Origin: Nannochloropsis salina CCMP1776
Taxonomy: Eukaryota > Sar > Eustigmatophyceae > Eustigmatales > Monodopsidaceae
DNA: 64,000 nt
NCBI GenBank assembly: GCA_004565275.1
Contig: SDOX01000010.1
Span: 753,446 to 817,445 of the forward strand
Direction: 5' to 3'
This document shows, piece by piece, positions 27,001 through 46,484 of this stretch. Within the stretch, counting starts at the first letter, position 1. Each line of letters starts with the position of its first letter. Under the pieces are notes generated by a model. That model made no database searches, was not told the DNA's origin, and worked only from the letters and a program-made list of their open reading frames with translations. Made by a program: the position numbers and the translations under genes.

Positions 27001-30000
27001 AGTGTTGCTGTCTGTTGTATTCCGATTGTGGCTCGGCTCTTTTCTGGTGCCAGATGTTCTGTTATTGCCACCTCTGATTCGAGAACGTGGCGCCATGAAG
27101 CCCTCATCGAGAAGCAAACTGAGGACTTCGTGACTAGGCGGGATGGCCAAAGGCAAGCCTCCCGGGCCCGCTTTGACATTTACTACGGCCTCACTTCTCT
27201 TTTTCGAAGCGGATGGTCCTGAAGAAGCGAAGGGTGAGGGAGAAATGGTACCTTCCGAGTTCGGAGAGCAGATACGGATATCGAGCCCGACGGGCAAGTA
27301 ATTGCGAATGTCGCATCCGCCGTGCAGAGAGATGCGAGTTTCCAATCCCTTCTTCTCCACCACCACCCACATCAAGACTTCTCGGTTTCCAGGCGAGGTC
27401 TGCCGCTGACGGCTGATTTTCGGCTTGTCTCTCGTGTTTGTCCCTGACAGCACTTTATCCAAGAGAAGGAAAACATCGTGATGACCCTGCCCGCTCGTCC
27501 GCAAAGGAAGGCAGCGTGCTCCCAGTAAATCAATGTCGACAGGTTCCGACCACACGGATGGTTCGTCGACACCTGCGATCATTTCATTCCTCGTTGTCAT
27601 GGTACTTGCTACAGTCGTTGCCGAGTGCTCTTTTTCCGACGTTGTTGTCATATTAAGCGCAAAACGCAGAAGCAAGGATGAGGGCTGTCGTCCAGCTTCT
27701 TTGGCCCATGCCCTTGCGGTGTACTCTTGGCTGGAGCACGGAGCCGCCCGGATAATTTCGTTAGTCAAGTGCTGGCCCAACCAGAGAGAATGCTGCGTGT
27801 GGTTTACAATTTTATAGCGATAGCATCTAGCCGCAGAGGATGGGGGTGTTGTATCGGTTATCGATGCTTTTCTGGCCTTGAAATCTTGTCGCAGAACGTC
27901 GATAGATTGAATGATACGTCTTGATAGGTTTATGCGACACCAATCCACCGATATTCCCAAAGACTGCCGGACATGATGACCTGTCTTATCTTCCTCCCCC
28001 AACCCTGGCGTGGACATATATCTTGGAGCAGAAGAATCGTGCGAAAGACCAGGAGATGGGCAAGTATGATCCCTAGACGTCGGCTCAGATCCTTCATTTC
28101 CAGCACTGTATCGAGCTGTTAAGAATTTTCCCCGCAAAGCAGGCAATAGTGTCCAACGGGACACGTCCACAACATCCATTTCCAGATCTCGCACTGTCAG
28201 CAATCCGCTTTTGACCCCTTGCTCCTTCATACTATATCTCACATGCAAATCACGCATAGATACTACCGCCAATTCTCCTCTATCTTCTATTTCGCCTCTC
28301 CCCGGCGCAACCGTAATCCCTTCTGCCCCTCTCTTTGGATACAGTTGTAAAAAGGCATGAGGGATTGTTACTTGCAAGATGGACTTGATCTGGTCCATCG
28401 GAGACAAAAAAACTTCTAGCGAGATTAGATTGGCAAGGGAGAGTACCATAGGTCGCCAGACGCACTCCAGTGAGAGGATGTTGGGTGGCCAAAGGTGCTG
28501 CAACACATGCTCGTGCTGTTGTTGATGGTGATGTTCGTGTGTTCTGTCCCAATACAGATTGAGCTGCCACCGACGTCCTCCAATCCCTTGATCACATTCA
28601 ATCAAATGTAGCTCCTTGTCTTTCTCCTTGGCTCCGACTTCTCTTTCTGATCTGGCTTCCGTCGTAGCAACAACCCCATCTTCGTCTCCTCCTGCTTGAA
28701 ATCGCACCTTCCAGCGTACCACAACGTTTGATTCCCGACCGTTTCCCGTTTCGCATCGATTCATCTCTTCGCTTTCAAAAATTTCCCCCTCTGGGACCAC
28801 AGCAAGTTCTAAAATGGTAGGGAAATCGGCAGGCGGACTATATTTGACACTCTGTAGAATTATATGATCCGGACAACGGACATTTCTGGCGCGTACTGGC
28901 AATGGAAACTGCCATTTCAACGCGGTAAGGCATGCCAATTTCCCCGTGTCACCAGGCTGGGCAGGTCGATATGTTGAGTGAGTCTTATCGACGGCAGGAG
29001 CAGAGGAACAAGAGGGAGCCAGAGCGGGGTGGCAACGCATGAGGAGTGCGCCAGGTTCAGGCTCGGGAAGAGGCCCTTCAAATGCAGTCATTTCTAGCGC
29101 ACTAAGGGCCACCCATGTCGTTAAAGGTTGACAACAAGACCCTGGTATGAAGGGACTTTGCTCACGAGTGGTGGCAACTTGGGGTAGTGAAGCTCCTGGT
29201 GATACCGCTCCAACTGTTCGCGTGCTGGAGTAAGACGGCGTGGTAGACACCAAGCATGAGGAGAACGCTTGGACCAATGTCTGTAAATGGTCTAATACAG
29301 GAACACAGAAATGAAACTGGAGCGGCTCTATTTGTATAGATACACTAGGAGGTAATGGGGTGGCTGCAGCAAAGAGCGAGTTGATGTGACTTAAAGGTTG
29401 TCGTAGACAACGGCGCATATCCTCTTGAGTCACGAAGACATTTGCCCCAATCAATAATGGCCATTGAAATTCGGTGGCCTGCTTGCATCTCTCAAGATTC
29501 GTCGTCATCTTTCTCTCCTCTGTCATCAATATGGAAATACGTGTCTGCACCATATTGAGGTAGTGATCCACATTGTATCCCGCCGTGCGCAAGCTAGCCA
29601 GTACCTGGTCCGCTTCAATCTCCAATGTTGGGAGTAATCCGGCATGACGACTGTCACTGCTCAATACGACCTTCAAATGATCAGTGACAAGTTTCGTCGT
29701 TTCCGTACGTCCTAGCAAAAAGGAAGACAATCGCGTCCCTCGCCTCGAACGTCGGGCTGCCGCAACAGCCACAGCACGTGCTTCTATCGCATCCTTGGCC
29801 GCGAGCATCTTCAGGTCCAAATCCATAAAACCGCCAAGGGATCTCAACGTCGAACACGAGTGAGGATCGAGATAAAGGATTGAGGGTTGAAGCTGAATAG
29901 TCATCTCTGAGGCATTACCATCGGCGGGCTTATGCCACGCAAAAGTGAGGGCAGATGTGCCCGAAAACAGGGAGAGGAATTCAGGCCGGGGAAGAAGAGC

Positions 30001-33000
30001 CAACCCTCGATGATGGGTTAGGGAATCGCCCGTATGAGTCGCCCGTCTGTTCTCAATCACCACCCGTGCTACGTCAAAGTGGCCTCCGTGAGTGCCTAGG
30101 CTTAGTGTACAGTCCTCCAGTTTCAAGTGGAAGGCTACCTTTTCCATATCCACCGCCTGACTGATGGTGCACGTTGGCGGCATTTCCGCACAGAAGTCCC
30201 GGGAAGAAGGGCGGGGACTCTTGAAGGACACGTATAGGTAAGGACATGCCAACCGCAAGTTAGGCAGCTCCTTACCCTCATCTTTATCATCGTTTCGCAA
30301 TCTCGCCAATGTTGATGCGTGTCCGTCGTTGCCATATTTACGACAAGCGATGGCGTGATTACCACTGCATTGCACGAGCGGCGCCCGTGTCACATTTCGA
30401 CCGAAAACGCCGACCACCCGCCACAGCACCGCCATTTCCAAGGTCCCCAGTGTCAATGCTAGGGGCGAGACAAGCACGGTCCGGGCAGTCTCTCGGGATA
30501 CTTCCTCTTTAGTGAAAGCACCTTTGCCACCTTCCACCTCGAAGTCCACTCTCTCTATCAAATTCCATGCGTGAAGTAGTTCGAGCCCTTGATTGGCGTC
30601 AACCCGCCATTGGCCCATCTGAGCTCCAAAGCCCAAACGGCGTATCTCCATGGGCATGGCTGGGGCGGTCACTTCTGTTTCCTCACCCGGTCTGCCGTGT
30701 CCGTTTTCGCCCCGACGCCACAGCACCAAATTATCCAGGTCAATGGAGACGCCGAAACGGGCGTCTTGCAAAGTCCCTCCAAGAAGGAGGACCCGTGAAG
30801 TTTGAGCCGTTAACAGGAGGGTAGGACAAGGGGGCGCAACGTCTTCCTCATCATCAGTCTTCGCCATTCGTTCTTCTCTATCCTGAATCTTTCCAGCGTG
30901 GAGGGAAGATGACTTTGTCATTGGCTTGCTGGCGAGGGTGCCCAAGCGAAGGAGAGCATAAAGGAAGGGGCAGTACAAGATACACTGACAAGGTTCGAAG
31001 GCAACCTCCATATGCACCATTGCCCTGGTCTTCCGTTCCGACTGCCATGAAATCTCAAAGAACGCCTTTTTTGCCACGCGTTCCATGCAATCCTCGTCTG
31101 GCACGAGAAGTGGCACAACCACCATTTCCTCCCCTTCAAATTCTGATCTCTGGTGACGAGCTTGTTGCAGGGCGGCTTCGAGGCTTTCTTCCTCAACTGG
31201 AAGCAAGAACGGTAAGAGCTTCTTGTAAATGATTTCCATGTGTCTATTCGAGAAAGAGTTTTCTGACCCTCTGGCGGCATTGTGTGTAGGGACGTGCCCC
31301 TCTGCCCTTACATGTGCAATGCCCAAGTGGTTGTGGATTAATGCTTCTGCACGACCTTCATTTGATACAACCCATTCACCCCCGCGACATGCAAAGACTG
31401 CGCGGGGCAATTCACCTGCCAACCACGGCAGGTCGATCATGATAGTGAATGTATCAACGCATAATCGCATTTTCTCTCGCGTGCTTGCACCCACAATCCT
31501 TGGCGAGGACGGTAAAGCAGCCATTAGACGAGTGATCTCCAAAGCAGCCGTCCGCAATGCCCAGATGTTTAGTGGGCTCACATAAAAAGTGAATTGTTGG
31601 GGGACTGAGATTTCCGTATCGCGCCCTTCTTGTACAGAAGTTATCGTTTTGACGGAAACCACAGGTGTTTGCAAAATGAGAAAACTTCCCTTGGTCGTTT
31701 CAGGAAGGTTTTGAATGCAAGGACCGCTTGTCTTCTCCTTGTCGATCACATCCCTACTGGCGTGGGAATTCTTTTGCGAGACAGAGAACTCTTTCATCAC
31801 CATTTCTAGCATATCCCGGGAGTCCCTTGTTGGAGTGTGGTCGTCAACACTGCCGGAGATGGGGTCGATTGCCGTCTTGTTCATGGCTAGCTCCAAGCAT
31901 TCGCACGTCATGCACACGAAAGAATTCGGGGGATGGACCAATGGAAGGCCAGCGATAGTTGCATCCAAGGCGTTCCCGTCGTTCCTACGGAGGAAAGTAG
32001 AGATAGCCAAACCGAAGCGCCAATAGGCAGGAATGACGGAAAGAGATACACCAAGGGGCATGCTCATTTTCCCACACTGGTGCATTTCCTCGTCCAAACT
32101 GCTTTTCCTTCCGTTCCAAATGCCCGTCTGGTGTATTTGTTTGATGCTACTCTCAAGAGAAAAACTCATATTTTCCGCCTCAAAAAGGGTCAGCACATCG
32201 TCTGTGCCAAGACGGGATGCGGAAGTCGAGTCAATGGGTACATTCTTCATGCCGATAGCTAGGCGCGCCATTCTGCAAGAGCGATGGTGGGAGGTCGGCC
32301 CCTGTTGGCAATGCTTCAAATCTAGATCTTCTAGCTGTAGCATACATTCAGGCCGCTGGTTCCCACCCGGCCCATTACACGCAAACGCGACTTGAAGGGA
32401 GTCAATTCGGATATTGCAAGTCGTTTGCCAAGGCCGGTACGCGTTGGGCGCGGGAGAGACGGAGCTTGCCCTTAATGGAGTGGAAACGAAGCATGCCAGA
32501 CCTAGGACCACCGCCGGCGTCAGACGGCACCGAAGCGCCTCGGAGAAAAGAACATCAACGACGATTCTTTGAGAATCAGCTTCACCGGTTTCGCGGTCTC
32601 CGCCACCCCAAGGCCTATCTCCCATATCCCGACCTCTCAATTCGCTATGGCGCTCTTGAAAATGCCTTACAACGAGTACGGTCGAACGGAGTGGCCGTAG
32701 CCCCCCTTCCGCCCCCTGCAGTACCTTCTCCACATACTCTTCACTCCGATTTGAGGCCTTGACCAACAAGGTGCGTTTAAAAAGAGCTTCCAACAATATA
32801 GGCGCCGAGGCCGTGGGTCCCTCTTCCTTTTCGCCTTCCTTTGTCTCTCCCCACTGCAAAAGCATGGGCATCGTAGACGAGAATCCCCCCCCCTGTTCCC
32901 CCCATCCCGCTTCAGCTGCCTCCGGTGTGTCTTCTCCGGCACAAGCCACCTCTAAAGCTCTCATAGCACCCCGCACGTCCCGTGTGCGGGAGCATGTCTT

Positions 33001-34788
33001 TGTCGCTCCGGTTCCTCGAAGCTCCTGAGAGTCGACGGATAGGCCCAAGGCACGCAGACGCAGGAAGACCCAGGAGGTTTGCGCTTGGAGGGGTACGCGG
33101 AGGCTGTCATGTTCTCCGGAGCCACCGACGCTCGGCGCCTTCCCAGAGCAAGACGACTGTCCGCTGGACCGGAGCAAAGCGAGATAAAAGGCGTGGAGGC
33201 GAAAGCTTGTAATGTGCATCCGTGAGTACCAGGAGACGGCCGGCTGTCCCTCCTTCTGGCAGAAATCTGAGGTTGCTGCGAACTCTTGTCCATCCTGGTG
33301 TCGCACCGCTCCCGAGTCGTCTGTACATTCCCTTGCCCTTCCCTTCGTCTTTTGTCGGTCTGATTGCGTTCGACCGTCCTGCCCCGTTCTTGTATTGGCT
33401 CGAGCCCACAGCTCGCACAGTAGACTGGCTTGATTCTCGCTGAAGGAGACACGCAAGCGGTCGCACTCCGCGTCCACCACCAGGGCTGCGTGCACGCAGG
33501 AGTCCCATCGACCGCCAGCCTGCCCTCCTTCCTTTACCCCTCTTTCCCTTCCACCTTTGGCGCTCCGTGCCTCTCTTTCCATTTCCTTCTTCTCCACAAA
33601 CAATCTACTTAATTTTGTTTGCCATGGCGTCGCCGTGGGGCGGGGCAGCTCAGCTTTCCTGCTGTCCTCCTCTCCTCTCTCCACCCTGGCTAGTACAGGG
33701 CATAGGGCGCCAAATGTGGGAGGCAGGTGCCCGTCATAGAAGTCAGCCGCCACCAGCTCCATCTCCCGGTTGGCGGCTGTCCCGGTGGGAGGAGAGGAGA
33801 CGACGTAGGGACTGTCCAGGAAGAGTCCATCCATCGACATGGGCGAGAAGTGGTCCTCCTGGAAAAAGGACGGTTTGCTCGACGCCGGTTCATGCCGTGG
33901 CGATGGCGGAGATAAGGAGGAGACTTGCGAAGGCGGCGCCTCCCATCCCCAGAAATTGAAAGCGTCGCGGACGTCGAGGGCCAAGCGGAACCGGAGGGTC
34001 GTGCGGTCCACCAAGGGGGCCTCGTGCCGTCGTCTACCACGACTGCTTCCGCTCATGCTGATGTCTCCCGGGCTGTGTCCGTCCAGGCAAATCGTTAGGT
34101 CCTGGATCTGGAGCATTTTGAACAGCCAGGGAGAGCTGGGAGGGTCGCAGTCGTTGAAGGCCGGCTCCCACTCCCGGCCCGGGTCCGCCGAGTGCATGGT
34201 TACGTTACATATGTAGGCAGCTGCCGCAATGCTTCCATCGTGCTCCTCGTAGCGAACGGCGAGGTTCTCAACTCGAACCGCGACATTCATCAGCATCTTC
34301 TTCCCCAAGGCGTGCAGCCAGCCCGTAGGCTTCTCAGAGCCCACGACTTTCGTGCTTTCTTGCTCTTCTGGAGTGACGATGCTGCCTCTTTGCCTTCTCG
34401 AAGCGCGTGTGGGAGGATGAAGCTCGAGGTCAGAGCTGTCAGGAGACAAGTCAGGGGACGCGGCGGGACTGTCTGCATCCTCAGAACCGGTGCCGGCACG
34501 CTTGACCACAATCTCCACCGTTTTTAAGGTCACCTGCACCACAGGCTGGGACTGGGCAATAATGCGCGCCCACGGAATAGAAAGGCGGAGTTCTTTTGCC
34601 GTGCCTCGGGCTATGTCGTACTCCAAGGGCAGGTTGAGCAAATTGCGAAGCAAATTTTTGCGGAGGGACAAGTTGTCCAGAACAACATCCCCGGTAATGC
34701 CAGACACAATCCCACCCTCGATGAGATGGTCCAACGATTCCTGAATCTGACGCGTCAGGTAGCTTCTTATCCCCTGCGTGAAATCCAT
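21097..34788 (-). CDS. VPS13: VPS13-family bridge-like lipid transfer protein (giant, single exon)
   Basis: 4,563 residues in one uninterrupted frame. It starts MDFTQGIRSYLTRQIQESLD, the chorein N-terminus, followed by GDVVLDNLSLRKNLLRNLLN and LRLSIPWARI, the hallmark start of the VPS13 lipid groove. An upstream in-frame extension lacks an ATG. The middle has the long beta-rich repeating-groove composition with acidic/Ser-rich linkers. The C-terminal third has VAB-like segments (SIPLVMLNRSSLYDIHVGIE), then the SHR/ATG2-C-like helices (SNYVADAIFRSPALLGSLEI; SLTGAGRGLLSLTRHVVGGT; GVNRGLEEGRERLDYGPAGA) and a PH-like end (LVNEEQVRLLKGFLSRW). VPS13 proteins sit at organelle contact sites and move bulk phospholipid between membranes. 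It is longer than yeast VPS13 (about 3,100). Which contact site it serves cannot be read from the sequence. Divergent from FKGP across 486 bp. Confidence 0.92.
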   Translation of the reverse strand: MDFTQGIRSYLTRQIQESLDHLIEGGIVSGITGDVVLDNLSLRKNLLRNLLNLPLEYDIARGTAKELRLSIPWARIIAQSQPVVQVTLKTVEIVVKRAGTGSEDADSPAASPDLSPDSSDLELHPPTRASRRQRGSIVTPEEQESTKVVGSEKPTGWLHALGKKMLMNVAVRVENLAVRYEEHDGSIAAAAYICNVTMHSADPGREWEPAFNDCDPPSSPWLFKMLQIQDLTICLDGHSPGDISMSGSSRGRRRHEAPLVDRTTLRFRLALDVRDAFNFWGWEAPPSQVSSLSPPSPRHEPASSKPSFFQEDHFSPMSMDGLFLDSPYVVSSPPTGTAANREMELVAADFYDGHLPPTFGALCPVLARVERGEEDSRKAELPRPTATPWQTKLSRLFVEKKEMEREARSAKGGRERGVKEGGQAGGRWDSCVHAALVVDAECDRLRVSFSENQASLLCELWARANTRTGQDGRTQSDRQKTKGRARECTDDSGAVRHQDGQEFAATSDFCQKEGQPAVSWYSRMHITSFRLHAFYLALLRSSGQSSCSGKAPSVGGSGEHDSLRVPLQAQTSWVFLRLRALGLSVDSQELRGTGATKTCSRTRDVRGAMRALEVACAGEDTPEAAEAGWGEQGGGFSSTMPMLLQWGETKEGEKEEGPTASAPILLEALFKRTLLVKASNRSEEYVEKVLQGAEGGLRPLRSTVLVVRHFQERHSELRGRDMGDRPWGGGDRETGEADSQRIVVDVLFSEALRCRLTPAVVLGLACFVSTPLRASSVSPAPNAYRPWQTTCNIRIDSLQVAFACNGPGGNQRPECMLQLEDLDLKHCQQGPTSHHRSCRMARLAIGMKNVPIDSTSASRLGTDDVLTLFEAENMSFSLESSIKQIHQTGIWNGRKSSLDEEMHQCGKMSMPLGVSLSVIPAYWRFGLAISTFLRRNDGNALDATIAGLPLVHPPNSFVCMTCECLELAMNKTAIDPISGSVDDHTPTRDSRDMLEMVMKEFSVSQKNSHASRDVIDKEKTSGPCIQNLPETTKGSFLILQTPVVSVKTITSVQEGRDTEISVPQQFTFYVSPLNIWALRTAALEITRLMAALPSSPRIVGASTREKMRLCVDTFTIMIDLPWLAGELPRAVFACRGGEWVVSNEGRAEALIHNHLGIAHVRAEGHVPTHNAARGSENSFSNRHMEIIYKKLLPFLLPVEEESLEAALQQARHQRSEFEGEEMVVVPLLVPDEDCMERVAKKAFFEISWQSERKTRAMVHMEVAFEPCQCILYCPFLYALLRLGTLASKPMTKSSSLHAGKIQDREERMAKTDDEEDVAPPCPTLLLTAQTSRVLLLGGTLQDARFGVSIDLDNLVLWRRGENGHGRPGEETEVTAPAMPMEIRRLGFGAQMGQWRVDANQGLELLHAWNLIERVDFEVEGGKGAFTKEEVSRETARTVLVSPLALTLGTLEMAVLWRVVGVFGRNVTRAPLVQCSGNHAIACRKYGNDGHASTLARLRNDDKDEGKELPNLRLACPYLYVSFKSPRPSSRDFCAEMPPTCTISQAVDMEKVAFHLKLEDCTLSLGTHGGHFDVARVVIENRRATHTGDSLTHHRGLALLPRPEFLSLFSGTSALTFAWHKPADGNASEMTIQLQPSILYLDPHSCSTLRSLGGFMDLDLKMLAAKDAIEARAVAVAAARRSRRGTRLSSFLLGRTETTKLVTDHLKVVLSSDSRHAGLLPTLEIEADQVLASLRTAGYNVDHYLNMVQTRISILMTEERKMTTNLERCKQATEFQWPLLIGANVFVTQEDMRRCLRQPLSHINSLFAAATPLPPSVSIQIEPLQFHFCVPVLDHLQTLVQAFSSCLVSTTPSYSSTRTVGAVSPGASLPQVATTREQSPFIPGSCCQPLTTWVALSALEMTAFEGPLPEPEPGALLMRCHPALAPSCSSAPAVDKTHSTYRPAQPGDTGKLACLTALKWQFPLPVRARNVRCPDHIILQSVKYSPPADFPTILELAVVPEGEIFESEEMNRCETGNGRESNVVVRWKVRFQAGGDEDGVVATTEARSEREVGAKEKDKELHLIECDQGIGGRRWQLNLYWDRTHEHHHQQQHEHVLQHLWPPNILSLECVWRPMVLSLANLISLEVFLSPMDQIKSILQVTIPHAFLQLYPKRGAEGITVAPGRGEIEDRGELAVVSMRDLHVRYSMKEQGVKSGLLTVRDLEMDVVDVSRWTLLPALRGKFLTARYSAGNEGSEPTSRDHTCPSPGLSHDSSAPRYMSTPGLGEEDKTGHHVRQSLGISVDWCRINLSRRIIQSIDVLRQDFKARKASITDTTPPSSAARCYRYKIVNHTQHSLWLGQHLTNEIIRAAPCSSQEYTARAWAKEAGRQPSSLLLRFALNMTTTSEKEHSATTVASTMTTRNEMIAGVDEPSVWSEPVDIDLLGARCLPLRTSGQGHHDVFLLLDKVLSGTNTRDKPKISRQRQTSPGNREVLMWVVVEKKGLETRISLHGGCDIRNYLPVGLDIRICSPNSEGTISPSPFASSGPSASKKRSEAVVNVKAGPGGLPLAIPPSHEVLSLLLDEGFMAPRSRIRGGNNRTSGTRKEPSHNRNTTDSNTFSTTILGSDGDNISGGLSGDAMTAPPVDSTYMLQKLMMVQARVSSRQISTCGSSSSDPYPKSDTAFGQTMILTLPEIVQPDQACKVNLTSPHRHPMTSCTVLGQAPPASPDEPTVWFLCHLRRVILNSQKSISSACPTHSDGRYMWGWLSLELWPLAYLMNLGLPLDHRVLPGKHPQPVAASPLTPVSRNRAPIPLHPTLPCESMSSMPAPTPYLEQDMVARDIDDRRRNSSLSMSANDSESGKVRASARDVDAAKRAIQDKIQLLSQKRLQKKMGMTREVSAPSYTDGRGDHQNEDLSIKEEGGPKPSANSAALSLYAPQNDRVWSPLSPGAPAAIAVCRTDPRYGLAFSVRPSTSTLSTNGTNKTTDGDDCWIGATLISNSQTDFSMSSSDLLAWVRSGNMGHVDGNAALDECPQPLLNIGLLGPAGEHGNIWTDRPGCFLGQRLIPYAVRRPAHLGPSLLVDVTPLWTVANHCPFPLSLLALVPRRPMDPTGASNNVASMTAGFGDFNDAGFQVLPPDGKVVPLNNSAWPFTDWNKSERSVGPNGSTGVPAFALGVKVMEDSVTGELKLQDAQLTTAPAKQCWSKPVGLDALVASMLPVTSKSDEERTGIRRGIADISLFVPVQGDKWLPLTLRLISRSVRAGGRRESVGIGECHDHKSTERKEAFSNAHGLGMHRLEIRPRLVLQNSMRLPARDCLAVYYPDGKFHTAFNNDHGQTGSPTKVSKADWQIILLRRSKDAFSPKHDRKSMVPQEGSSLTTMKGGMSDLPLPSSDILDDSTGGFDLSPSPFSSSTVPYSSLPPRSRMSSTSSPTMLRRVWCRASRRPSGSNEENDSDDEAGRTEHQVRANKVTDPTYVENVTYRQTFGLCIVAPGRPLSTAAVLSNFKPTTFTTPSHPVPGAGTGILDSSDYHYRVLEIEALGEDAREIHLRCPRPGAGLVGPNGKDIMAIRPHLKYHEGTFYVQISAEPSIPLVMLNRSSLYDIHVGIERWSIERQKEMRKRRSDVRDSKKEEYGSKNGALLPMQHTLCVPPGARVEWNPSRPDLYLSAIATSILDASNPLSDTDVDRQDLDGYTPGITEGGAIKNDEGASGAAFRRSTFSTKKTPIFDCRLRCALAAGKAGIRTVERERGEEGEWEDNITSKVLVSTWSSLLHTGKSCSDGCHRLNMSFWKASGSITCEDSTIRSTIPKSSAEEEMEGDGEELLRAFRRTSLAAVTATLSTAAGISCLVIDDCLEQPHKTATDVGNIPGFPLAPQLKVESQRDRLTTLTVGARVLDLQLLEDEVAIQKLGGYAGTSTRSNGARENVDEAVPPGALRLPALLFIRFSGAKTRYDCSVASGDAFLKGSRTLNVSLDGLQVDHLANGAEFPVVLYFFDKQRQRRDHNGNSVLDFTFKEVFLNPIVMGEGRPLSYVERLEISSSRVRVGVDGALLHTIRFFQENLTATEKGEDSDASAGWDDRLGVPRILSNKVGPAVLTENDPTPSTFFQSVTFSPLSVLLDARVFVPGSRVFLGLDGSPLFFEGVRLTDVFSTPQAFLKGILSNYVADAIFRSPALLGSLEIIGSPAILVSRVVSGLKDLVLLSASGSLTGAGRGLLSLTRHVVGGTLASLAGFSSSVRRNLEPGERVRGGQPHGNHDVHFHRRSGSVEFSGSGGTRAWKGEEGRRLSLPAGLDVGGSAEGSSKDGGTSGGSGNLLAGVGRGLYKAVTFPISGAMGVIWWTSDRLITSTGVNRGLEEGRERLDYGPAGAGASCSVHWDAYYRHSCGLRFRKGTLKAVIHAYMEQKREKLYAEITDESEQGGTRGWFGRFIGGGDSARDSSNSGPSSNDHFESGQTTILPVRVVLAEEDAIYIIAHSHGAETPVFNLRLSNAGALKWRHVQVEASPSSLGSMDGITIHRGLAKYESSIIDGKEHGEAWWWHLIEMHVDGGERGVIDHFSPLKLWLVNEEQVRLLKGFLSRWANGTGE

Positions 34789-35274
34789 GGCAGCGCAATC
34801 CGGGCCCTGTGTCCGATATGTCCATGGTGGATAGGCAACCAGGATGGGGCGTACGCAGGTCGTGGGGGACTCTTCATGCAAGGCTCAAGAGCGACAGTCA
34901 CACACATCCATACTGACACCGCGCGATGCATGTGCGCATTCTCTGACGCTGTGACACGCCAGATAATCAAAGTCGCCCCTGTACGTGGGCAAAGGGATTG
35001 GCCTCCCGAGTACAGGCGGGGGCTTGCCACCACCTGAACGTGATGTTGGCTTGCACTTCTTACGGCGATGACGGGCGAGCGCCCAGCTTACGGTCCGGCC
35101 CAGGGCGCAGCGTGGCAAAAACAACCCTGCCGAGACATTTCCTTCTTATCCGCGCACCTAAGACAGGTTTTGACTGCATTCGTCCCCTCCCGTGGCAGCT
35201 GGATTTTTTTCCTGGTGACTCATCACGCTATTCGAAAAGCCCTTTCCAAGTACACTCCCACATTGTAACTGCCG
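34789..35274. promoter_or_regulatory. Divergent promoter region of VPS13 and FKGP
   Basis: 486 bp between two start codons facing away from each other. It must contain both promoters. No TATA box, E2F-like site or tandem element stands out. Confidence 0.5.
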
Positions 35275-38200
35275 ATGCCAAGAATACCATTCCCCTTTCC
35301 TGTTGTGGTGGTGACAGCTCCAACGGAGCGCTCAGCGGAAGCATATCAAGAGGAACTACAGGCTCGATTGTCCGAGCGCTATTTTGCCGTCTGTCCGGGA
35401 CTGAACAATGACGAAAGTAGTAAAGAGGAAAACGAGCAAGAACTTATTCTGCTTGCTGTCGCGGACCCGCTCGGCAAACGTGTGGGAAGTGGCGGAGGGA
35501 CTTTGAATGCGCTCGTTCATGTACATAGCTACCTACACAGGCACCACTTTGTGAGCAGCGCCGGACAATGGCCAGCAATATTGATGGTACATTCGGGGGG
35601 CGATTCTCAACGTTCACCTACCAATTCAGTGTGCGGAAAGGCGTGGTCGTGTCTCAATTCCCACCGAAACGGGGACGGCGGAAGCAACACCCCCATCGAC
35701 CTCCTGCTAGAGCAGTTCACGCAGCTTTTTGCCGGTGGCGTGCCTTCTGGGGCACTGGTGGTGGCGTCCTCCGATGTCCTCCTTGTCTTGCCCCCGTGGC
35801 TTGTGGACTGGGCTTCACAAAGGGGAGTGGTGGGGCTGGCTGCGAGTGTGCCTGCGGCTCTCGGTCCCAATCATGGCGTGTATGTCACATCTACCTCCGC
35901 GATAGCTTGCGCCCGGCGTGGTCGTGACGTGGAGGAAAGAAGCGAAGGCAGGAAGGTCATGACCCAACGCGTGATGCAGTACCTCCAGAAAGCTAGCCTG
36001 GTCGATCTGATCGCAAAAGGAGCCGTATCCACTGAGGGCAATGTTCTGATAGACACAGGCGTCCTCTTTTTCTGTCCCCAAATCACCAGAGAACTCGTGT
36101 CGTTGCCGAAAGCGCATGCGGTCTTTCGCCGCTGCTGCAGCCGGGGAGAGACGGAGGGAGGGACTGCGGGAGGAAGCGTCGAGGAGGCTTTGCGTTTGGA
36201 ACTCTACACAGACCTGCTCCTCGCTTTGAGTGACGGCTTGGGGCAAGATCGGGCCAGTTACGTGGGCATGGACGGCGCGAGCAGCGAGAAGGAGGCGGTA
36301 GAAAGGGCCGGCCAGGGCCCAGGGGCGGTGTCCGCCCTGCGGGAAGCAAGGGGGGTGCTGTGGGAGTGTCTGGGGCGGTGGCCTTTTTCGGCCCTAGCTC
36401 CCCGGGGAGCCCTCTTTGGCCATCTGGGCACCACTCAAGAGCTCCAGGCGATGATGACCTTGAAGATGACGCCCTTCTCTTCCGCCTTTCGCCTCGCCCG
36501 CCGAGTGTGTTGCGTGGTCGAGGGGGAGGAAAAAGACAGTGCGGGCGCACAAAGTGGAGAACAAGCATACAAAAAGAAGGAGGGTGCTGTTGTGCTGAAT
36601 TCCATCCTGACCCCTTCAGGCGGGCTCTGTTTGGGTGACGGCTCGATCGTCGAGCATTCCGTGGTAGAGGGCGAGAGCCGTTTGGAGGTGGGCGCCGGGA
36701 CCCTGGTGAGTGGCCTATGCCACGCCCCCGCCCAGCAGGCAAATACCTGCATTGGCCCTGGTGTGGTTGTGCAAGAAGTGCGGCTGGGTGCCGTGGAGAG
36801 CACAGGCCAACCGGGGCGGTCCCTCGCCTCCCCCTATGTCGTCTCGGTCCTTTCTCTCCACGACAACGTCAAGGCCACTTATGGAAAGGAGCCTCAGGCG
36901 GGTGTTTGGAACCGGCCGTGGGGGGTCGTTCTCGACATGCTCCAAGTCGACGCCGGAGTCATCTGGCCACACTCCCGCCTGCCTGTCGACAGCAACGTTT
37001 CCACCACAGAAGGCATTTCCGCTGTCAAAGACTCAAATTTTCAGCCGAGGCCGCGCACCTTATGGCATGCCTGTCTCTTTCCGGCAGTGGGGGAAGCTGG
37101 GACGCCAGCAAGGGGCACGGGTTGTCAAGGGGCATGGTGCTGGCAACAAGCGTACGCCAGCCAGGGAAAAATTCCATCCCGGGAGGCCGTGGTTGCGTGG
37201 CGACAAGCGCGCCGGTTGTCCCTGAGTGATATCCTGGCTCAGGCCGAGCCGCGGGCGGAGTTTCGATGGCGACGGGCGTTGGAGGCGCGGATCCTGACTA
37301 GGACCATCAGAGAGACGTCACATGGGGAGGGAGGGTTGAAAGGGGCAAGTCTCGCCAAGTCCGCACCCAGGAACATAGAGACAGCAGACGGGCGCCACGT
37401 TTTGAAAGCGCCAGGACGGCTGGAAGGCGATGGGCGCCGCAACCTGGTTTTGGAATCGCTGAAGGAGGCGTTGAGGACAGGCCCGAGCCTCGAGGATTTA
37501 CATACAAAGCCTTTGGACGCAGTATGGCGGGACAGCTTGCCTTCGTACGAGGAGAAGCTATGGTTGGTGGTTGCTTTGGAAGAGTGGGCTGAAGATCACG
37601 TTTTGAATCGAGCGGAAGGCGCGAAGGGGAGTGATGTTAGGAAGGCCGAAGAAGACAGTGCTTTTGACGCCGGGCGATTGTCTAGGTCGGAGTTGTGCGC
37701 TGGGGATGAGGCTCCTCTCTCGGTCTTGGCATCGACATGCGCTTTGCTAGCGCGCGTCTTGGAGGCACTCGCCCAACAGATAGACAAGGAGATAAACGGC
37801 ACAGAGCAGACGGTCTACAATGCCCAGTGGACACAAGCAGTACTGCAGTTGACGGTCGGAGGAACAGGGGCGGTTGAAAGCCGGCGGGAGGCTTTCAAGG
37901 AAATGAGGGCAATGCGGGTTGCTTGGATGGCGGACGAGAAATGGCGCGTGCGGGAGGTGGCCGCTCATTACGATATGACCACCTTCGCGCTAATCAAGCG
38001 GCAAGTTGCATCCGTGCATCGGGCTGTCTCGTGCGGCTCTGCTTCCAAGGTGCAGGTGGGAAGAAGCGTCGTAGCCGAGGCTCCTGCCCGGATCGATCTG
38101 AGCGGCGGGTGGTCAGACACCCCGCCCATCTCCTTCGAGCTGGGAGGGGAGGTTACCAATCTCGCCGTTCAATTGAAGGGACAGCGACCTATAGGAGCCC

Positions 38201-39318
38201 GTGTGACGATCTTAAAGGACCATGTGCTGGTGCTGCAGGCTCGGCAGGCCGACGGGGACGTGACTGAGCGCGTGTGCAGGACTATGGCAGACTTGAGGGA
38301 GGGCAAGGACGAAGAGGGCAAAGGGCAGGAAGGACGACAAGCTGCAAAAATGGACAAAAAGGCTGCAGCGTGCCCCACGGCTTTGGTTCGGTGGTGCCTC
38401 GTGTACTTTGGCGTTCTGCCGAACGAGGGCGAGAGATCATTCACGCAGATCGATCAGTCATGCCACGACCAGGCAGAGGCCGATGGTGCTTCGCGAGGAA
38501 AGGAGCGGCTTTCGACCTTGCTTGCTCAGCACGTCGGCGGTGGCCTCCGCGTCGAGACATGGTCCATGCTGCCCACAGGCTCCGGGCTGGGAACCAGCAG
38601 CATCCTGGTAGGCACCGTGCTCGCGGCCCTGGGTCGGGCGTGCGGACGGGCGTACAGCGTGTGCGCCCTCAACCACGCTGTATTGGAGGTTGAACAACTC
38701 ATGGACGTTGGCGGCGGGTGGCAGGATCAAGTCGGAGGCCTGGTCGGGGGTGCGAAGCGGGCGTACTCGGCACCTGGCCTTCCACTGCGTGTGAAGTATG
38801 AGACACTGCCCCTCTGTCCCGCAGTACGCGCGCGCTGGGAGAGGCATCTTCTGCTAATCTACACCGGTCGGGCACGCTTGGCTTCAAATATTGTACGGTC
38901 TGTCGTGCGACGGTACTATGCGCAAAGCCCTGAAGTACTCGTCACCCTCCAGGGCCTTGTCCACGGCGCACGTTCCGCGGCCGACGCCTTACAAGAGGGC
39001 GACGTGAAAGCTTTAGGAAAATGCCTGAACAAGTACCGGAAGCAAAAGCTGACAATGGCTCCGTCAAGCGAACCTGAGCACGTGCGGCGTCTCATAAAGA
39101 TTTTAGAGATGAGGGCACTCGGAATGGTGACATGTGGAGCGGGGGGAGGGGGCTTCTTACTAATGTTGACACGCTTGCCGGATGATGCAGACAAGGTACA
39201 GAGCATAGTGGAGGGTCATCACATCGACGCATATGTAGCAACGCTGAATATAGACGAAGAAGGGTTGCGAATAAGAGTTGAAGAGGCCGTTGGGCTTTTG
39301 GGAGTCGGTGGAGCGTAA
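35275..39318 (+). CDS. FKGP: Bifunctional L-fucokinase / GDP-L-fucose pyrophosphorylase
   Basis: Single exon, 1,347 residues. The N-terminal half is the fucose-1-phosphate guanylyltransferase with the nucleotide-binding loop GSGGGTLNAL near residue 73 and ALVVASSDVLLVLPP. The C-terminal part is a GHMP kinase with its three motifs: PARIDLSGGWSDTPP (about 938), the ATP loop LPTGSGLGTSSIL (about 1098) and CGAGGGGFLLML (about 1287). The enzyme salvages free L-fucose to fucose-1-phosphate and then GDP-L-fucose in the cytosol, supplying fucosyltransferases for glycoproteins and fucosylated wall polysaccharide. The domain order is that of plant FKGP and Bacteroides Fkp. It is longer than the plant enzyme (about 1,055) because of extra loops, for example between the two GHMP strands and in the central linker. 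All catalytic motifs look intact. The start is the first ATG, immediately followed by the conserved hydrophobic strand PFPVVVVTAP. Confidence 0.93.
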   Translation: MPRIPFPFPVVVVTAPTERSAEAYQEELQARLSERYFAVCPGLNNDESSKEENEQELILLAVADPLGKRVGSGGGTLNALVHVHSYLHRHHFVSSAGQWPAILMVHSGGDSQRSPTNSVCGKAWSCLNSHRNGDGGSNTPIDLLLEQFTQLFAGGVPSGALVVASSDVLLVLPPWLVDWASQRGVVGLAASVPAALGPNHGVYVTSTSAIACARRGRDVEERSEGRKVMTQRVMQYLQKASLVDLIAKGAVSTEGNVLIDTGVLFFCPQITRELVSLPKAHAVFRRCCSRGETEGGTAGGSVEEALRLELYTDLLLALSDGLGQDRASYVGMDGASSEKEAVERAGQGPGAVSALREARGVLWECLGRWPFSALAPRGALFGHLGTTQELQAMMTLKMTPFSSAFRLARRVCCVVEGEEKDSAGAQSGEQAYKKKEGAVVLNSILTPSGGLCLGDGSIVEHSVVEGESRLEVGAGTLVSGLCHAPAQQANTCIGPGVVVQEVRLGAVESTGQPGRSLASPYVVSVLSLHDNVKATYGKEPQAGVWNRPWGVVLDMLQVDAGVIWPHSRLPVDSNVSTTEGISAVKDSNFQPRPRTLWHACLFPAVGEAGTPARGTGCQGAWCWQQAYASQGKIPSREAVVAWRQARRLSLSDILAQAEPRAEFRWRRALEARILTRTIRETSHGEGGLKGASLAKSAPRNIETADGRHVLKAPGRLEGDGRRNLVLESLKEALRTGPSLEDLHTKPLDAVWRDSLPSYEEKLWLVVALEEWAEDHVLNRAEGAKGSDVRKAEEDSAFDAGRLSRSELCAGDEAPLSVLASTCALLARVLEALAQQIDKEINGTEQTVYNAQWTQAVLQLTVGGTGAVESRREAFKEMRAMRVAWMADEKWRVREVAAHYDMTTFALIKRQVASVHRAVSCGSASKVQVGRSVVAEAPARIDLSGGWSDTPPISFELGGEVTNLAVQLKGQRPIGARVTILKDHVLVLQARQADGDVTERVCRTMADLREGKDEEGKGQEGRQAAKMDKKAAACPTALVRWCLVYFGVLPNEGERSFTQIDQSCHDQAEADGASRGKERLSTLLAQHVGGGLRVETWSMLPTGSGLGTSSILVGTVLAALGRACGRAYSVCALNHAVLEVEQLMDVGGGWQDQVGGLVGGAKRAYSAPGLPLRVKYETLPLCPAVRARWERHLLLIYTGRARLASNIVRSVVRRYYAQSPEVLVTLQGLVHGARSAADALQEGDVKALGKCLNKYRKQKLTMAPSSEPEHVRRLIKILEMRALGMVTCGAGGGGFLLMLTRLPDDADKVQSIVEGHHIDAYVATLNIDEEGLRIRVEEAVGLLGVGGA

Positions 39319-39839: not shown

Positions 39840-42800
39840 ATGAGCAGGATAGAGGTTACGGAAGAACTCTTAATGAGTCTGGGCTGGAAAATCACAGTCA
39901 AGAAAGGTCGCACTGTCTCCGTCGAACCGCCTCAGGATGGTAAGTTCGCGACCGCGTCTTGCTTTCCCGCCCGAGTGCTTATTCCTAAGCTCCTCCACGT
40001 GATATACGATATACATGCGCACTCACACTTTGACATCCTTTGATTTGCATTATCAGGTGGACTTGGGCTGGAAAATTTTCCAATATGCTTCGCCACGGTG
40101 TCAGAGGTCGTCGCATACTTTACGGCAGAGGCTCGGCATCTGGACCCCGCTTTGGCTGACAAAATCATAAAAACTGCGGCAGCTGAAGCCTTCAAATGTT
40201 ACCTCAGGGCCAAGGGATGGGAGATTCGTCCAGCAAATCGCAGGCAAGGCCCGCTCATCGGAAGCTTCCCTCGACGTGTCGCGGTTTTCTTCGTCCCCCC
40301 CGGGTCCCGCTTTCCCGATGCAGGCGTGGAGGGCAAGGACTTCTTCTCGCACCGAAGCTTGTTCGAGGCTCTCCTGGAAACAGAGGCAGGCAATCGCGTT
40401 CTCACCGGTGTGTCCAGTGAAGAGGCGGGCGAAATGGTGCTGGAAAGCATTTTTGCAGAAGCTTGGCGATGCCTGGAGGAAGCTGGAGGCTGGAAAGTAG
40501 ATTGCGGTGACGACCTGGCGACGATTGAATACGCGCCAGCAGGAGAGTCGCGGCCTTTGTCTGTCTTCAAAGGCAAGCGTGAATTTCTCCGCGCCTGCTA
40601 CAGCATCGCGACCACGCGTGGCTTGCCTCCCCTGCCTGTGGCGGCCCTGAGAACCGAGGACACGCTCGAGGAGAGGAGTGAAGCCTTGTGGTGTAAAATG
40701 ACCAGCCCCCGGTACAACTACACCTGGGCGTACCAAATCGATGGTCGACCTTACATCGTGCCACGCGAGATGCGGGACCTGGAAGAGGCCGTGCGGGACG
40801 AGACTGCCTTCGAGAGTGGGTCTCATTTGGTCTCTTGCTTACTAGGCGGAGCCTCCAGCGCCCCCGCGGCCACATTCGCTAGTGCGTCACACTCCCCTGT
40901 TTGCTCCCCCTCTATCTTGCCCGCCTCTCGGGCACTGTCGTCGTCCCTGGATCCGCCGCGACCGCCTCTCGAAGAGAAAGTGAGCCACAGGAACGTGCTC
41001 GCGGCGACCCTTGGGAGAGGTACTCGTTGCTATGAAGCCTCTTCATGCCCCGCTCTGTCGGTGGCTGATCCTCGCTCTGCATCTCGCCCATCCTCCACTC
41101 AGCCCTCGGCCGAGACTGGCAGAGCGGGTGGAAGTCGAGGGGCGAGTGGGGAGGGAAGGCCCTCACGAGGCACCCCGGGCGCGGGCATCATCGACATCTC
41201 CCAGGGCGACCACGCCCTGTCTATCGACGACGATTGGCCCCGTTTCGTGGAGGTCCTCCCCAGGCACGGCTTTGGATATGCCTACCGGACAAGTCGCTCC
41301 GACGCCAACGGTGGCGTGGCCCTCCTGTTGCCTCAGCACGCGGGGAAGAACGTTGAGTCCTGGATGGTGGAGGGCCGGGACTGGTTCCGTAACAAGGAGC
41401 AGATCGTTCCCTACATACAGGCGCGCTACAAGACGAGCCACCACCGCACGGACTATCAGAGTCCCAGAGGGGCCCGGGCTTTGAATCGAAAGACCAGGAA
41501 CGCAGCCGGCGCGTCCAAGATTGCAGGCGCCAGCGTGGCCTCGTCCTGTGACAGTCGTAGTGCGAAGGAGAACATCGACTTTTCTTCCACGTCTTCATTA
41601 TCTTCGACGGCTGGGCCTCCTGCTCCCTCCCGGACCGCAACGATGAATGCAGCCTCGGCTTCCTCGCGAAACTCAAGTTTCCAGAAAAGAAAGGCCGGCC
41701 GAATGCGGAACGTGTTTGAGCTGGAGAGAGATGAGACGGACGGCGCGGAAGAGGTGGCGCAGGGACCGATAGTCAAAAAAGAGTCTGGAGCCCGGAGGGT
41801 TGTCGGCAAGAAGAAGCAGAAGCTGGGCGGGCGGACAGGGACTGCTGAAAATGACGGCGACGGAGAGGAGGAGGGGGAGGTGGGGGTAGGCAAGGCGAAA
41901 CCGACTACGCGCGCGCACAAAAAGAGGGAGAAAGCCTTGGATGGGCGCCGTGGTGGTGGCGGCTCGCGCACACATATTATCAAAGTAGAAGTACCGGGGT
42001 GCCAGAAGGGCCTGTCGAAGGCCAAGGGAAAGCAAAGCAGAGCAAGAGGGAGCCCGGAGGGGGGGGACGCTTCGGACTATCGGTACTATATCGACGTATC
42101 CGAGAACGAGAACTGGGTGTACCGATACTTAAAGGACTGGCACGGGTGGTGCACCAAAAGTGGCTTCCGTAAGCAGGACGGGACGGACAGTGGCTATCGG
42201 TACTGTACCCCTCGTTACAGCGAGGCGCATCAGGAGGAAGGGAAGCATTGGTTCCGGTCCCTGGCCGACGTGAAGGAGTACGTCTCGCGGCACGTGGAGG
42301 CGGGCTGCCTTCCCTTTGCCTCCATCTTGAACGACAGCGAGAGCACGGGCGATGGCAGCCCTTCGGTGGGGGGAGCGGCGGCCGTGATGACGGCCGAGGG
42401 GGAGGGAATGGAGGAAGGGGCGGGGGAAGAGGGGAGGAGCTCGGCAGAAGTGACGGGCTTCGAGTCCCTGGAAGAAATGACCCGCAAGCTGGTCACGTTC
42501 CACGGCTTTGTCACGGAGGGCCGTAAGGTCATCCCGCCGGGAGGGTCGGCCCGGGGCCAGCGTGGGGAGGATTACCTTGAAGGCTTGGACGATTTGCAAG
42601 CCTACGTGCTCGAGAAGATACAGGGTCTCCTGCCCACGCAGGACAACCCCTCTTTCAACGCCTCCTCCAGCCCGAACTGGGGTCCCATGGGCCGCCCTGT
42701 GGGAGCGTCCTCTTCCATAGGGGAGCCGGACATGGGGAATGGCAAGGCGGGACAGGGGATGGGAGCGGGGAGGAACAAGGGAAAGAGGGGTCCGGGTCGG

Positions 42801-45800
42801 CCGAGCAGCAACAAAGCGGTGGTGGCGCGGCCCTCGGAGGGAAACGGAAGAGCCTATGGCGGTGACGGCTTGTCCGGCGAAATTGGCAAAGTCCTGCAAC
42901 CGACAGACCTGCTTGATCAAACGGTCTTGCTCCAGAAACTCATTCGGTACTACGGGTGGAAGAAACAGTGGCCTGAGGCGCGGAGTCTGATTCAAGAGTC
43001 CATTTATATTCCTCCTGGAGGGAAGCGGCCAAGCGCCGGTGGAGTAGCGGGCGTGGATTTTGCCATCTCATTCGAGCACTTGCGACAACTGGTTGTACGG
43101 AAATACTTCAAGGGAGAGGATTTGCTGACAGAACATGCGGTGCCAGTTGTAGAGGAGATTGATTTGGATCTGACGAAAGAGAGACACTTTTCCATGATTC
43201 GCGCGGGGCGGGAAAAAGACGGGGAAGAGGAGGAAGAGGAGGATGATGATGATGAAGAGGATGAGGAAGATGATGATGATGAGGAGGAGGAGGAGAAGGA
43301 GGAGGAGAAGGAGGAGGAGGAGGACGCCGAGGAGAGGGAGAAGGCGGAGGGAAAAGTCGGGGAAATGGAGGGGGAGACATGGTCGGGCCAAAGAGAAGAC
43401 TGCATGGAAATCGATCTTCACCCTGCCCTCAGTGAGGATCAAGAGCGTCGCGAGGAACGGGACAGGGAGGAAAGGATGGAGGAAATGTCTCCCGAGACGG
43501 GGACGTCCAGGGATGAGAGGACCAAAGGTCATATCAGAGGGGTAGCGGGGGAAAAGGATGCACACGACCAATCACAGCCCACAGAATCTGGAGGAGGTAA
43601 AACATATTCTTCCCCTCAAAGTCCCCTGTCCGGTGCAAGAGAGGAAGTCCTCCACAGCCATGCTCGAAGCAATAGCCGCCTCGAAAGCCACTTCAGCGTC
43701 TTGGCGCCCGGCGAATGGTTTCAGCGAGACCATCTCGTTGCGTGGTTGCGAGACGGCAAGACTTTCAATGCCGCGTTGGACGTCCTAATGAAGACGCACG
43801 AATGGCAAGTCCTTCCTTCGCAGGGGAAGTTTACGTCGACCTCAGGAAAATTCTACGTGGCCCCAGGGGGCCGAACGCCGTGGGAAGGGGGAACGCACGG
43901 GGTGGACTATCTCACGGATCACGAGGAGCTGATTGAGTACGTCACCAACGGCTTTGGGTTGCTGACGAACCAATTTGCCCCCGTCACTGCCGCCTTAAGG
44001 CCAGACCGTCTGTATCGCAAAATTATCTCTCCACTGCACGATCGGAGCCGCCATTCCACACGATCGGGGCGTACCTACCCCCCAATTCCCTCCGACGAGC
44101 CAGCGAGCACGCAGATGGAGGAGTCACCATCGGCTTTGCGGCTTGACGGGGAGGTAGAGGAGGAGGAAGACGGCCGGGGACGGGAGAGACGCGGCGACAC
44201 GAGTATCGGGCCCTTCATTGAGAACGCCGGGAAGCAGTCGGCTGGAGGAGAGAGAAGCGACAGAGAGGCGTCAGGGGGGGTTGGTGACAGGGTGGGGGGG
44301 GGCGGGCTCCGGGGCAATACCCGTGATTCATTGCGTGGCGATTCGAAAGGGGCTGGGCGCCTTTTCTCCAGCAATTTTCCTTCCTTGGATACGGACGCCG
44401 AGGTCGCGTCGCCTGCGGGGGGCGGGGACGTCTGTCAGGGGCCAGGACGGCCAGAAGATGAGGAGAGCGCGCGGCGTCTGTCGACGGAATCCGTGCACGG
44501 ACCCGGCTCTTCCCTCTCCTACCAGACTCCCAGCCTCTCCCGAAGCACAGCGAAGCGTAGATGCTTAGAGAAGTCCGCGGAGGCCTTGGCTTCGGCCGTC
44601 TCGAGCGTGCCCTTGCTCACGCCTATGGAGGTGGACCGGTACACTTACAGCGTCTTGAAGGCCAAGCGATGGACCCTCGCTCTGCGACCCCCCGCCCCGT
44701 CCTCCTCGAACCATGCAATGTACGAGCTCATCCCTCCCCAGGAAGAGGGGCTCCCGACGCGGCCGTTCAACAGCGAGAAGGATGCCTTGCTATGGGCCAG
44801 GGACGAAGGAGGCTTGGTCAGCTCTCAGGAGCTCCAGACGCACGCGGAGGCGTGTCCCTACCAACCTATCATCGCCGAGATGGAGGTCGCTCGCAGCCGC
44901 CTGGGTCAGGCAGGCTCGGGGGATTGCCACGTGTCTGCGGTGCGGGAGGTGGAAAGCCGGCGTTTGCTCGACTTCTACATGGCGTATCTGCTGGACCCAA
45001 CGGGCGCCTGGCTCCGCGTGGGAGGGCTCCCGGGGACAGGGAAAACCTTGGCGGTGCAGCATTCAGAAGCCCTACTGGCCCATGCCTTGGCCTCGCGGGG
45101 CGTCAGCGCCAGACCGACCTTTGTGCGCCTGAACTGCGCCGCCTACTCGGCCCCCAAGAGCTTCCTCGAAGCCTTAGCAGCTCAATTGCATCTGACGGGC
45201 GGGACAGGCTCCTTTGCTTCCGCCTCTTCGCGCCGCATGAGCCTTGGCGCTGTAAGAGAGCCGCTGACCGAAGACGCGCTGTGGGCTAAGCTGGAGGAAC
45301 GCTTACGCTCGGTGAAAAGGCCGGACATGAACGGGCGAGGGACCGGGGGCACGCTTTCGGACGTCCTCAGCAGCCCGCTCATCAAGTCGATGACCTCCTG
45401 GTTCCGAGGAGGGGGGGCTGGGGCGGCGACCAAGGCGGCAGAGGAGACGACACGGGAGGTCTCGGAGGAGCAGGAGGCAGCAGGCGGAGACCGAAGGCTA
45501 GACTCGTCGGTGGTGAAGGCGAACGAGCTGGTGGGTCGCACGGTGGTGTTGGTGCTTGATGAGCTGGATCAATTCATCGCTACGAACAGGGAGACGATCG
45601 GGTGCGTGGCCCGCCTGATCAGCAACGTGATCATGGTCGCGGGCTCTCGGGCGTTGCTGGTGACGGTTTCCAACACGATTGACGACCACACGGCCCTGGG
45701 CGCCTTGTGGTCGAAAGTCAAGACAGGCCGGTCGCCGGCCTGCTGGATAGACTATGCGGGTCACGACGAGGACCGCGCACTCGCAGCAGGCATCGGTGAG

Positions 45801-46484
45801 GACAAGCTCGAGCCCATCATATTCCGCCCCTTTCAGGACGCGGAACTCGTGCAGATCCTGAAAGTCTGCGTCGGGGACACCTTTCAAGCCCCGGCTCTGG
45901 CCATGATCGCAAAGCGCGTCACTTCTTCCAGGGGGGACGCGCGCGTGGCCGTCGACACGTGTCGGCGGGCCTTGGAGCGCCACGTGCGGACGCTGGATGA
46001 GAAGGCAAAGACGTGGTGCCCCGCCAGCTTGATGGAAGGCGAAAAGGACAACGGAGACAAGTCTGTGGAGGTGCGGGACTCAGAGAGGCAGGTCACGGCC
46101 GCCGAAGCGAATGCCGCCTCCAAAGAAATGGATGTAGACGTGGGGAAAGACATTGGGAAGCTCCCCCAGCACGCTCGCTTCCTTCTCCTGGTTCTCCTGC
46201 ACATGACCACGACGAGAGGGGGAGGAAAGGGCGGGAATCAGGTGAAGCTAGCTGACCTGCAGAACGAGTACACGCAACAGGCAAAAGCCATCCTTGGGGC
46301 CAGCCAACTGGGCGCGTCCTCCAATTTTGAGGACAACTTGGAGTGGATTGATGAGAACGGGTTGGTGGAGAAAGGGAAAGGAGGCAAGGCGAAGGTTGTG
46401 AGCCCGAGGGTGGATTGGGCGACGGTGCTTCCGAAGCTGACAGTACAAGACAAAACGCATTTCAAGGCCTTGTTACCCAAATGA
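39840..46484 (+). CDS. Orc1/Cdc6-family AAA+ protein with about ten N-terminal repeat modules
   Basis: Two exons (39840-39939; 40057-46484), intron GTAAGT...TATCAG, 2,175 residues. The C-terminus is an Orc1/Cdc6 ATPase: Walker A GLPGTGKT at 1690-1697, Walker B VLDELD with Asp1868/Glu1869, sensor 1 in VTVSNTIDD, sensor 2 in SSRGDARVAVDTCRRALE, then a winged-helix end (about 2060-2175). Such proteins load MCM helicase at origins. The N-terminal 1,620 residues hold about ten diverged copies of a 45-65-residue module with an aromatic GW/GF start, Y-x-x-P-P/G-G, then G-x-D-Y/F/W-F/L, and ending L-x-x-Y-V. Approximate positions: 12-56, 85-142, 170-215, 242-286, 425-492, 719-784, 837-888, 987-1050, 1269-1335 and 1562-1620. 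They are separated by low-complexity linkers, including a long Asp/Glu tract (43219-43350). The modules faintly resemble MBD-type DNA-binding domains. No BAH domain is visible, so Orc1 versus Cdc6 is open. E2F-type promoter sites agree with a replication role. Confidence 0.85.

Follow-up and report, generated by a model that had tools for sequence, protein, structure and literature searches.

In many eukaryotes it is an open question how ORC selects sites when no DNA consensus guides it, and the question arises here in the form of a single algal gene: what is the ∼1,640-residue N-terminal tail of an Orc1/Cdc6 protein, with its copies of an unnamed module, for? The gene lies in the window that we analyzed, a 64,000-nt stretch of the Nannochloropsis salina CCMP1776 assembly GCA_004565275.1 (SDOX01000010.1:753,446-817,445, forward strand). 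Our gene model, made from sequence alone, runs from an ATG at 39840 to a stop codon ending at 46484 and encodes 2,175 aa; these coordinates and the order of motifs are as given in a preliminary description of this DNA. The features of the gene and its core are as follows, with core motifs located by alignment to ORC1 structures:

39840..39939, plus strand: exon 1, 100 bases, with the ATG and the first half of module 1; GT donor at 39940
39940..40056, plus strand: intron, 117 bases, GT..AG, with an in-frame stop inside; the exons join in frame
40057..46484, plus strand: exon 2, the remainder of the 2,175-aa Orc1/Cdc6 protein including the stop
44874..46481, plus strand: Orc1/Cdc6 AAA+ core and C-terminal region, with PDB and NCBIfam matches; 54% identical in the relative P0002
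45024..45047, plus strand: Walker A, GLPGTGKT
45546..45575, plus strand: Walker B, VLVLDELDQF
45666..45683, plus strand: sensor-1 region, VSNTID
45927..45944, plus strand: sensor-2 region, SRGDAR

The core, which makes up the final ∼535 residues, matched NCBIfam TIGR02928 with an E-value of 3.7e-12 (45.8 bits, under the curated cut-off of 181.3), and its top match in PDB was an ORC1 structure (3.8e-9), with Cdc6 lower (1.5e-7). Pfam matches of the window protein to AAA and lid families were sub-threshold. Walker A and B and sensors 1 and 2, a feature of Orc1/Cdc6 membership, were all in place, while the C-terminal winged helix (Cdc6_C) was marginal in P0002 (E 0.04, under cut-off) and had no match in the window protein. 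Pfam matched no BAH domain in the window protein from residue 48 onward, and none was found in the genome at E ≤ 1 by a search that returned 22 bromodomain matches and was thus able to find small chromatin domains. Given that BAH is patchy among ORC1 proteins, its absence does not rule out ORC1 identity. The window protein is an Orc1/Cdc6-type initiator ATPase of the alga, and the AAA+ core named in the preliminary description stands.

Genome searches covered 26.5 Mb in 103 contigs in six frames and exon by exon, which limits the absences they return. This gene was the sole genome match to the Cdc6/ORC-like lid family. TIGR02928 gave 25 rows, seven of which were assigned: four fell on this gene, the best on an ORC4 gene (ORC4_C, 36 bits against a cut-off of 25.3), one on a NACHT/CHAT/SH2 protein and one, assigned by eye, on a RuvB-like protein. 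ORC2 was present, and Cdc6_C matched nothing in the genome, this gene being missed as well. The protein is probably the only Orc1/Cdc6-type initiator of this alga. Separately, CHAT, NACHT and SH2 stood together in one protein at L009:82-2781 on the minus strand, to our knowledge an unusual combination.

The tail holds the following proposed modules and short linker features:

39840..40142, plus strand: module 1, residues 1–62, spanning the intron; moderate support; score reached by 6 of 1,000 shuffles; missed in the whole-protein scan
40164..40394, plus strand: module 2; strong support from the P0003 profile, leave-one-out and fragment shuffles
40428..40634, plus strand: module 3; moderate support for its first part only (21 columns aligned); 0 of 1,000 shuffles; 3.1 bits in leave-one-out
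40650..40868, plus strand: proposed module 4; unsupported; score reached by 303 of 1,000 shuffles
41211..41447, plus strand: module 5; strong support from the P0003 profile, leave-one-out and fragment shuffles
42087..42305, plus strand: module 6; strong support; 52% identical in P0002
42441..42638, plus strand: module 7; strong support; modeled, pLDDT 79.4; 70% identical in P0002
42897..43127, plus strand: module 8; strong support; modeled, pLDDT 82.9; 57% identical in P0002
43137..43163, plus strand: AVPVVEEID, right behind module 8; identical in P0002, with similar surroundings
43223..43350, plus strand: GGA repeat within the module 8–9 linker, translated as a run of Glu/Asp
43767..44006, plus strand: module 9; strong support; 60% identical in P0002
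44055..44072, plus strand: STRSGR, within a basic stretch behind module 9; kept in P0002
44610..44831, plus strand: proposed module 10; 54% identical in P0002; score reached by 269 of 1,000 shuffles; module membership unsupported

A module comprises 55–80 residues: its opening helix finishes on [H]GW/GF, two strands follow, the latter of them running out in xx[P]PG, and GxD[YFW][FL] and a closing helix come last. In A3, a 16-sequence module alignment with window and P0003 modules among its members, the GW position was aromatic (W, F or Y) in 16/16, one proline was kept in 15/16 and the aspartate in 15/16. Two modules were modeled, 7 and 8, and their predicted structures had the same order of elements. 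At the DNA level the gene showed no tandem repeat apart from the GGA run, which indicates that the module copies are not recent. Net charge was negative in seven of the ten proposed window modules (five of the eight supported ones) and acidic in 5/7 modules of P0003, whereas modules 2, 5, and 8 were basic; the linkers were net acidic as well (−34 over 910 residues).

That these units form one repeat family is borne out by profiles made from one protein and scored on the other. A profile built from the seven P0003 modules alone gave the window protein 92 bits, where the best of 300 shuffles of 20-residue blocks reached 3.0, and picked out modules 2, 5, 6, 7, 8, and 9; in reverse, the ten window modules scored 63.6 bits on P0003, and none of 300 shuffles exceeded 9.6. 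In a leave-one-out test, with each module's own copy and its P0002 counterpart removed from the profile, modules 2, 5, 6, 7, 8, and 9 scored 13.6, 6.7, 5.7, 22.2, 16.7, and 25.4 bits (for module 5, the second half alone was recovered). The shuffle maximum was 4.8 bits, taken from a single set of 500 to which two of the ten profiles were applied. Module 3 stayed under the best shuffle in this test, and modules 1, 4, and 10 scored nothing. When modules 1–6 and 10 were cut out and scored singly, each beside 1,000 shuffles, no shuffle reached the scores of modules 2, 3, 5, and 6, and for modules 1, 4, and 10 the counts were those listed above; five pieces taken from this protein as controls all failed, as expected. 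Eight copies are therefore supported, six strongly (2 and 5–9) and two moderately (1 and 3), and copies 4 and 10 are unproven. The earlier count of about ten thus shrinks to eight.

The array recurs in other proteins, and the number of relatives is a lower bound, since each search scored the ∼8,000 candidates with the largest word overlap within one length band. P0001 (2,124 aa, 94% identical) and P0002 (1,256 aa, 45% identical) are orthologue-like, the former with the array and the latter starting at module 6 and holding modules 6–10 and the core. P0003 (1,202 aa, JGI) is distant (E 3.1e-5) and has no Pfam match; we picked seven modules in it by eye, and it ends shortly behind the last of them, before any AAA+ core, so that the proteins seen to combine array and core are three: the window protein, P0001, and P0002. 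A further candidate, P0004, was dropped at an E-value of 7.5. Modules 7 and 6 of P0003 best matched window modules 9 and 7 (scores 81 and 83), and the likeness of its last module to window module 9 extended beyond the module proper. P0003 module 2 also matched window module 7 (71), and collinearity of the two arrays is accordingly not established.

Between the window protein and P0002, identity was 52–70% in modules 6–10, 54% in the core, and 24–44% in the four linkers between these modules, a comparison that covers modules 6–10 because P0002 begins at module 6. These five are, judging from sequence conservation, constrained domains, kept like the ATPase core and above the linkers. This pattern counts against reading the modules as leftovers of ancient duplications that do little by themselves, in a protein where only the core and a disordered tail matter. 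Such decay would agree with the strong divergence between copies and with the two proposed copies that have drifted past recognition, but we consider it quite improbable.

No entry in Pfam, NCBIfam, PHROGs, or PDB named the module, and its appearance as an undescribed unit is upheld within these libraries. From residue 48 onward, the N-terminal part gave chance-level Pfam rows only (E 0.05 or worse). The best PDB match of a module profile, A2, was a V-ATPase subunit (E 0.16), taken as chance; a viral structure library held nothing at E ≤ 0.001, and viral contigs searched with P0002 gave none. In the genome, a query of modules 7–9 found itself and five further rows, none better than E 0.28 and all within query positions 237–387, where the low-complexity linker joins modules 8 and 9, and the module profile reached E 0.92 at best on 15 genome loci. 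Other ORFs of the window were without the module (best 7.5 bits, E 0.2).

Other known families were compared with the module. DUF7028 (PF22970), which we take to sit in plant PHD/acetyltransferase proteins, matched one of 16 modules (P0002 module 8) over 32 residues at E 0.011, with 16.1 bits against a cut-off of 27; it had no match in the genome, where its control search was silent too, and one weak sub-cut-off match among 16 modules does not make an identity. A dsRBD identity was without profile support, and for the fold both dsRBD and the RecA C-terminal domain are candidates. Modules 1, 3, and 10 and P0003 module 1, which lie outside A3, matched neither DUF7028 nor MBD. Among the open-licence titles listed, none concerned the module array or ORC of Nannochloropsis. 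So far as these libraries and this literature were searched, such a domain array in an Orc1/Cdc6 protein is undescribed.

The preliminary description had compared the modules to MBD/TAM-type DNA-binding domains. The likeness lies in the order of GW, strand, YxxPxG, F-x-S and L-x-x-Y helix, which the modules share with MBD (PF01429), but they differ in having some ten residues inserted ahead of the final motif, in an extra N-terminal helix, in not keeping the MBD arginine finger, and in having no profile match. Pfam MBD matched 0/16 modules at E ≤ 10, with filters that drop most matches above 0.1, and an HMM of five MBD sequences, of which MBD2 was checked, did not single them out, giving −0.8 bits or less, under other ORFs of the window. 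Profile–profile comparison aligned MBD with A3 in the register that was expected (score 14.7; 200 column shuffles reached no more than 12.5, and the reversed profile 3.6), with a probability of 2–7% for A3, 53% for its six window modules alone, and 0.26% for modules of P0003 only. Structure comparison of the predicted models returned MBD rows of weak resemblance for module 8, whose place in the ranking speaks for MBD, and no MBD row for module 7. Membership of the modules in MBD/TAM, given the 0/16, the low A3 probability, the seven acidic modules of ten and the lost arginine, is not supported. A distant MBD-like fold is possible, and on such a reading the modules would be highly diverged MBD/TAM-fold domains acting independently of methylation, with the tail as a string of DNA clamps; we regard this as unlikely.

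A role in reading methylated DNA fares worse still. The arginine finger after the conserved aromatic is presumably the residue of MBD that contacts methyl-CpG, and at that position, taken from the MBD profile alignment, Arg occurred in 2/16 modules and Lys in 1/16. The genome had no match to DNA cytosine methyltransferase PF00145 at E ≤ 1, with the control found in 10/14, so the tail is probably no reader of methylated DNA; MBD itself was not matched in the genome either, a weak absence with a control found nowhere. The available part of PMC10943562 relays from another paper that the genus Nannochloropsis lacks 5mC for want of methylating enzymes, and it reports 6mA in N. oceanica (PMC10943562). 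Only two things speak for a methyl-CpG reader that places origins, a motif order like that of MBD and a weak likeness in structure, yet a mostly acidic array with two arginines in 16, in a genus described as without 5mC (PMC10943562, in part) and a genome without a PF00145 match, brings that proposal close to refutation, and we hold it to be very probably wrong.

What the preliminary description had proposed as a multivalent chromatin reader we keep, apart from its methylated-DNA element, as a multivalent tether for chromatin or partners. We infer that the AAA+ core belongs to the ORC ring and assists in loading the MCM helicase. Each module, in the position that BAH or PHD occupies in other ORC1 proteins, would bind weakly, and to histones or chromatin proteins in preference to naked DNA. 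Summed over the array, such contacts would keep ORC on chromatin or gather replication partners. The mostly acidic character of the modules suggests protein rather than DNA contacts, and about eight constrained, mostly acidic modules joined by loose acidic linkers would fit a tether of this kind, which we favor tentatively, at a little short of an even chance. Several observations weigh against it: the modules have diverged from each other, so that ligands may differ or some copies may be scaffold; modules 2, 5, and 8 are basic and might make some DNA contact; P0003 stops before the AAA+ core; and two of ten copies fail the statistics.

The array might also bind another protein, such as MCM, Cdt1, or a kinase, and have no chromatin role. 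The tail would then be a platform on which replication or cell-cycle proteins (MCM, Cdt1, kinases) dock, rather than a chromatin tether, and this reading competes seriously with ours. The acidity of most modules would suit it, as would short stretches conserved in the linkers, among them AVPVVEEID, which from its conservation in a 45% identical orthologue is a possible linear binding motif. Against it, S/T-P sites in the linkers numbered 14 where 9.4 were expected (71 of 1,000 shuffles reached this count), no clear enrichment of CDK sites, and S/TPxK/R was absent from the linkers, with RxL at 5 against 4.0. We give docking alone roughly one chance in four, and return to the multivalent tether below.

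A tether in this position would have partial parallels. Chromatin-contacting parts of ORC1 named in the accessible portions of two sources are BAH, PHD, and disordered regions (PMC12719912; PMC7058166): the Orc1 BAH binds nucleosomes, and in Drosophila a disordered Orc1 region is needed to localize ORC (PMC12719912), while ORC1 tails vary by lineage, with BAH patchy and PHD inserted in Chloroplastida (PMC7058166). Animal and fungal ORC1 resembles the window protein in its AAA+ motifs and long N-terminal tail, but combines BAH, AAA+, and winged helix, whereas the window protein has no BAH match and unnamed modules instead. Green algal and land plant ORC1 (BAH-PHD) likewise has a lineage-specific domain placed in ORC1, according to the same partial source (PMC7058166), and this PHD insertion is a precedent for exchange of readers; it is, however, one finger of a known family and not an array of an unnamed module. 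Trypanosomatids and other protists with a single ORC1/CDC6 apparently use, like this alga, one gene for both roles, and the parts of PMC7058166 and PMC7052976 at hand mention no such N-terminal array in them; a single CDC6/ORC1 was kept by 20 taxa of the former study (PMC7058166, in part).

The module family was seen here only in an algal Orc1/Cdc6 and its relatives and is perhaps confined to ochrophytes. It could be a new chromatin-binding domain family, amplified inside a single Orc1/Cdc6, that replaced BAH or PHD in the finding of chromatin by ORC, although we think this bolder version somewhat unlikely. An apparently single Orc1/Cdc6 with about eight unnamed modules, in an alga that can be transformed, offers a natural test of multivalent tethering. 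Modules that bind nucleosomes would constitute a new reader family, and modules that bind replication proteins would point to a different licensing solution with one Orc1/Cdc6.

Four other genes of the window were recognized. Upstream of the Orc1/Cdc6 gene, at 35275-39318, lies a fused fucose pyrophosphorylase/GHMP kinase gene, and on the minus strand at 21100-34881 a 4,594-residue open frame whose N-terminus is VPS13-like (E 1.6e-14, under the Pfam cut-off). The minus-strand gene at 15817-18843 encodes a VRR-NUC nuclease that also matches the FAN1 TPR weakly, and the gene at 894-5270 encodes an SNF2-type helicase whose motor halves lie far apart (SNF2 at 355–777, Helicase_C at 1116–1212).
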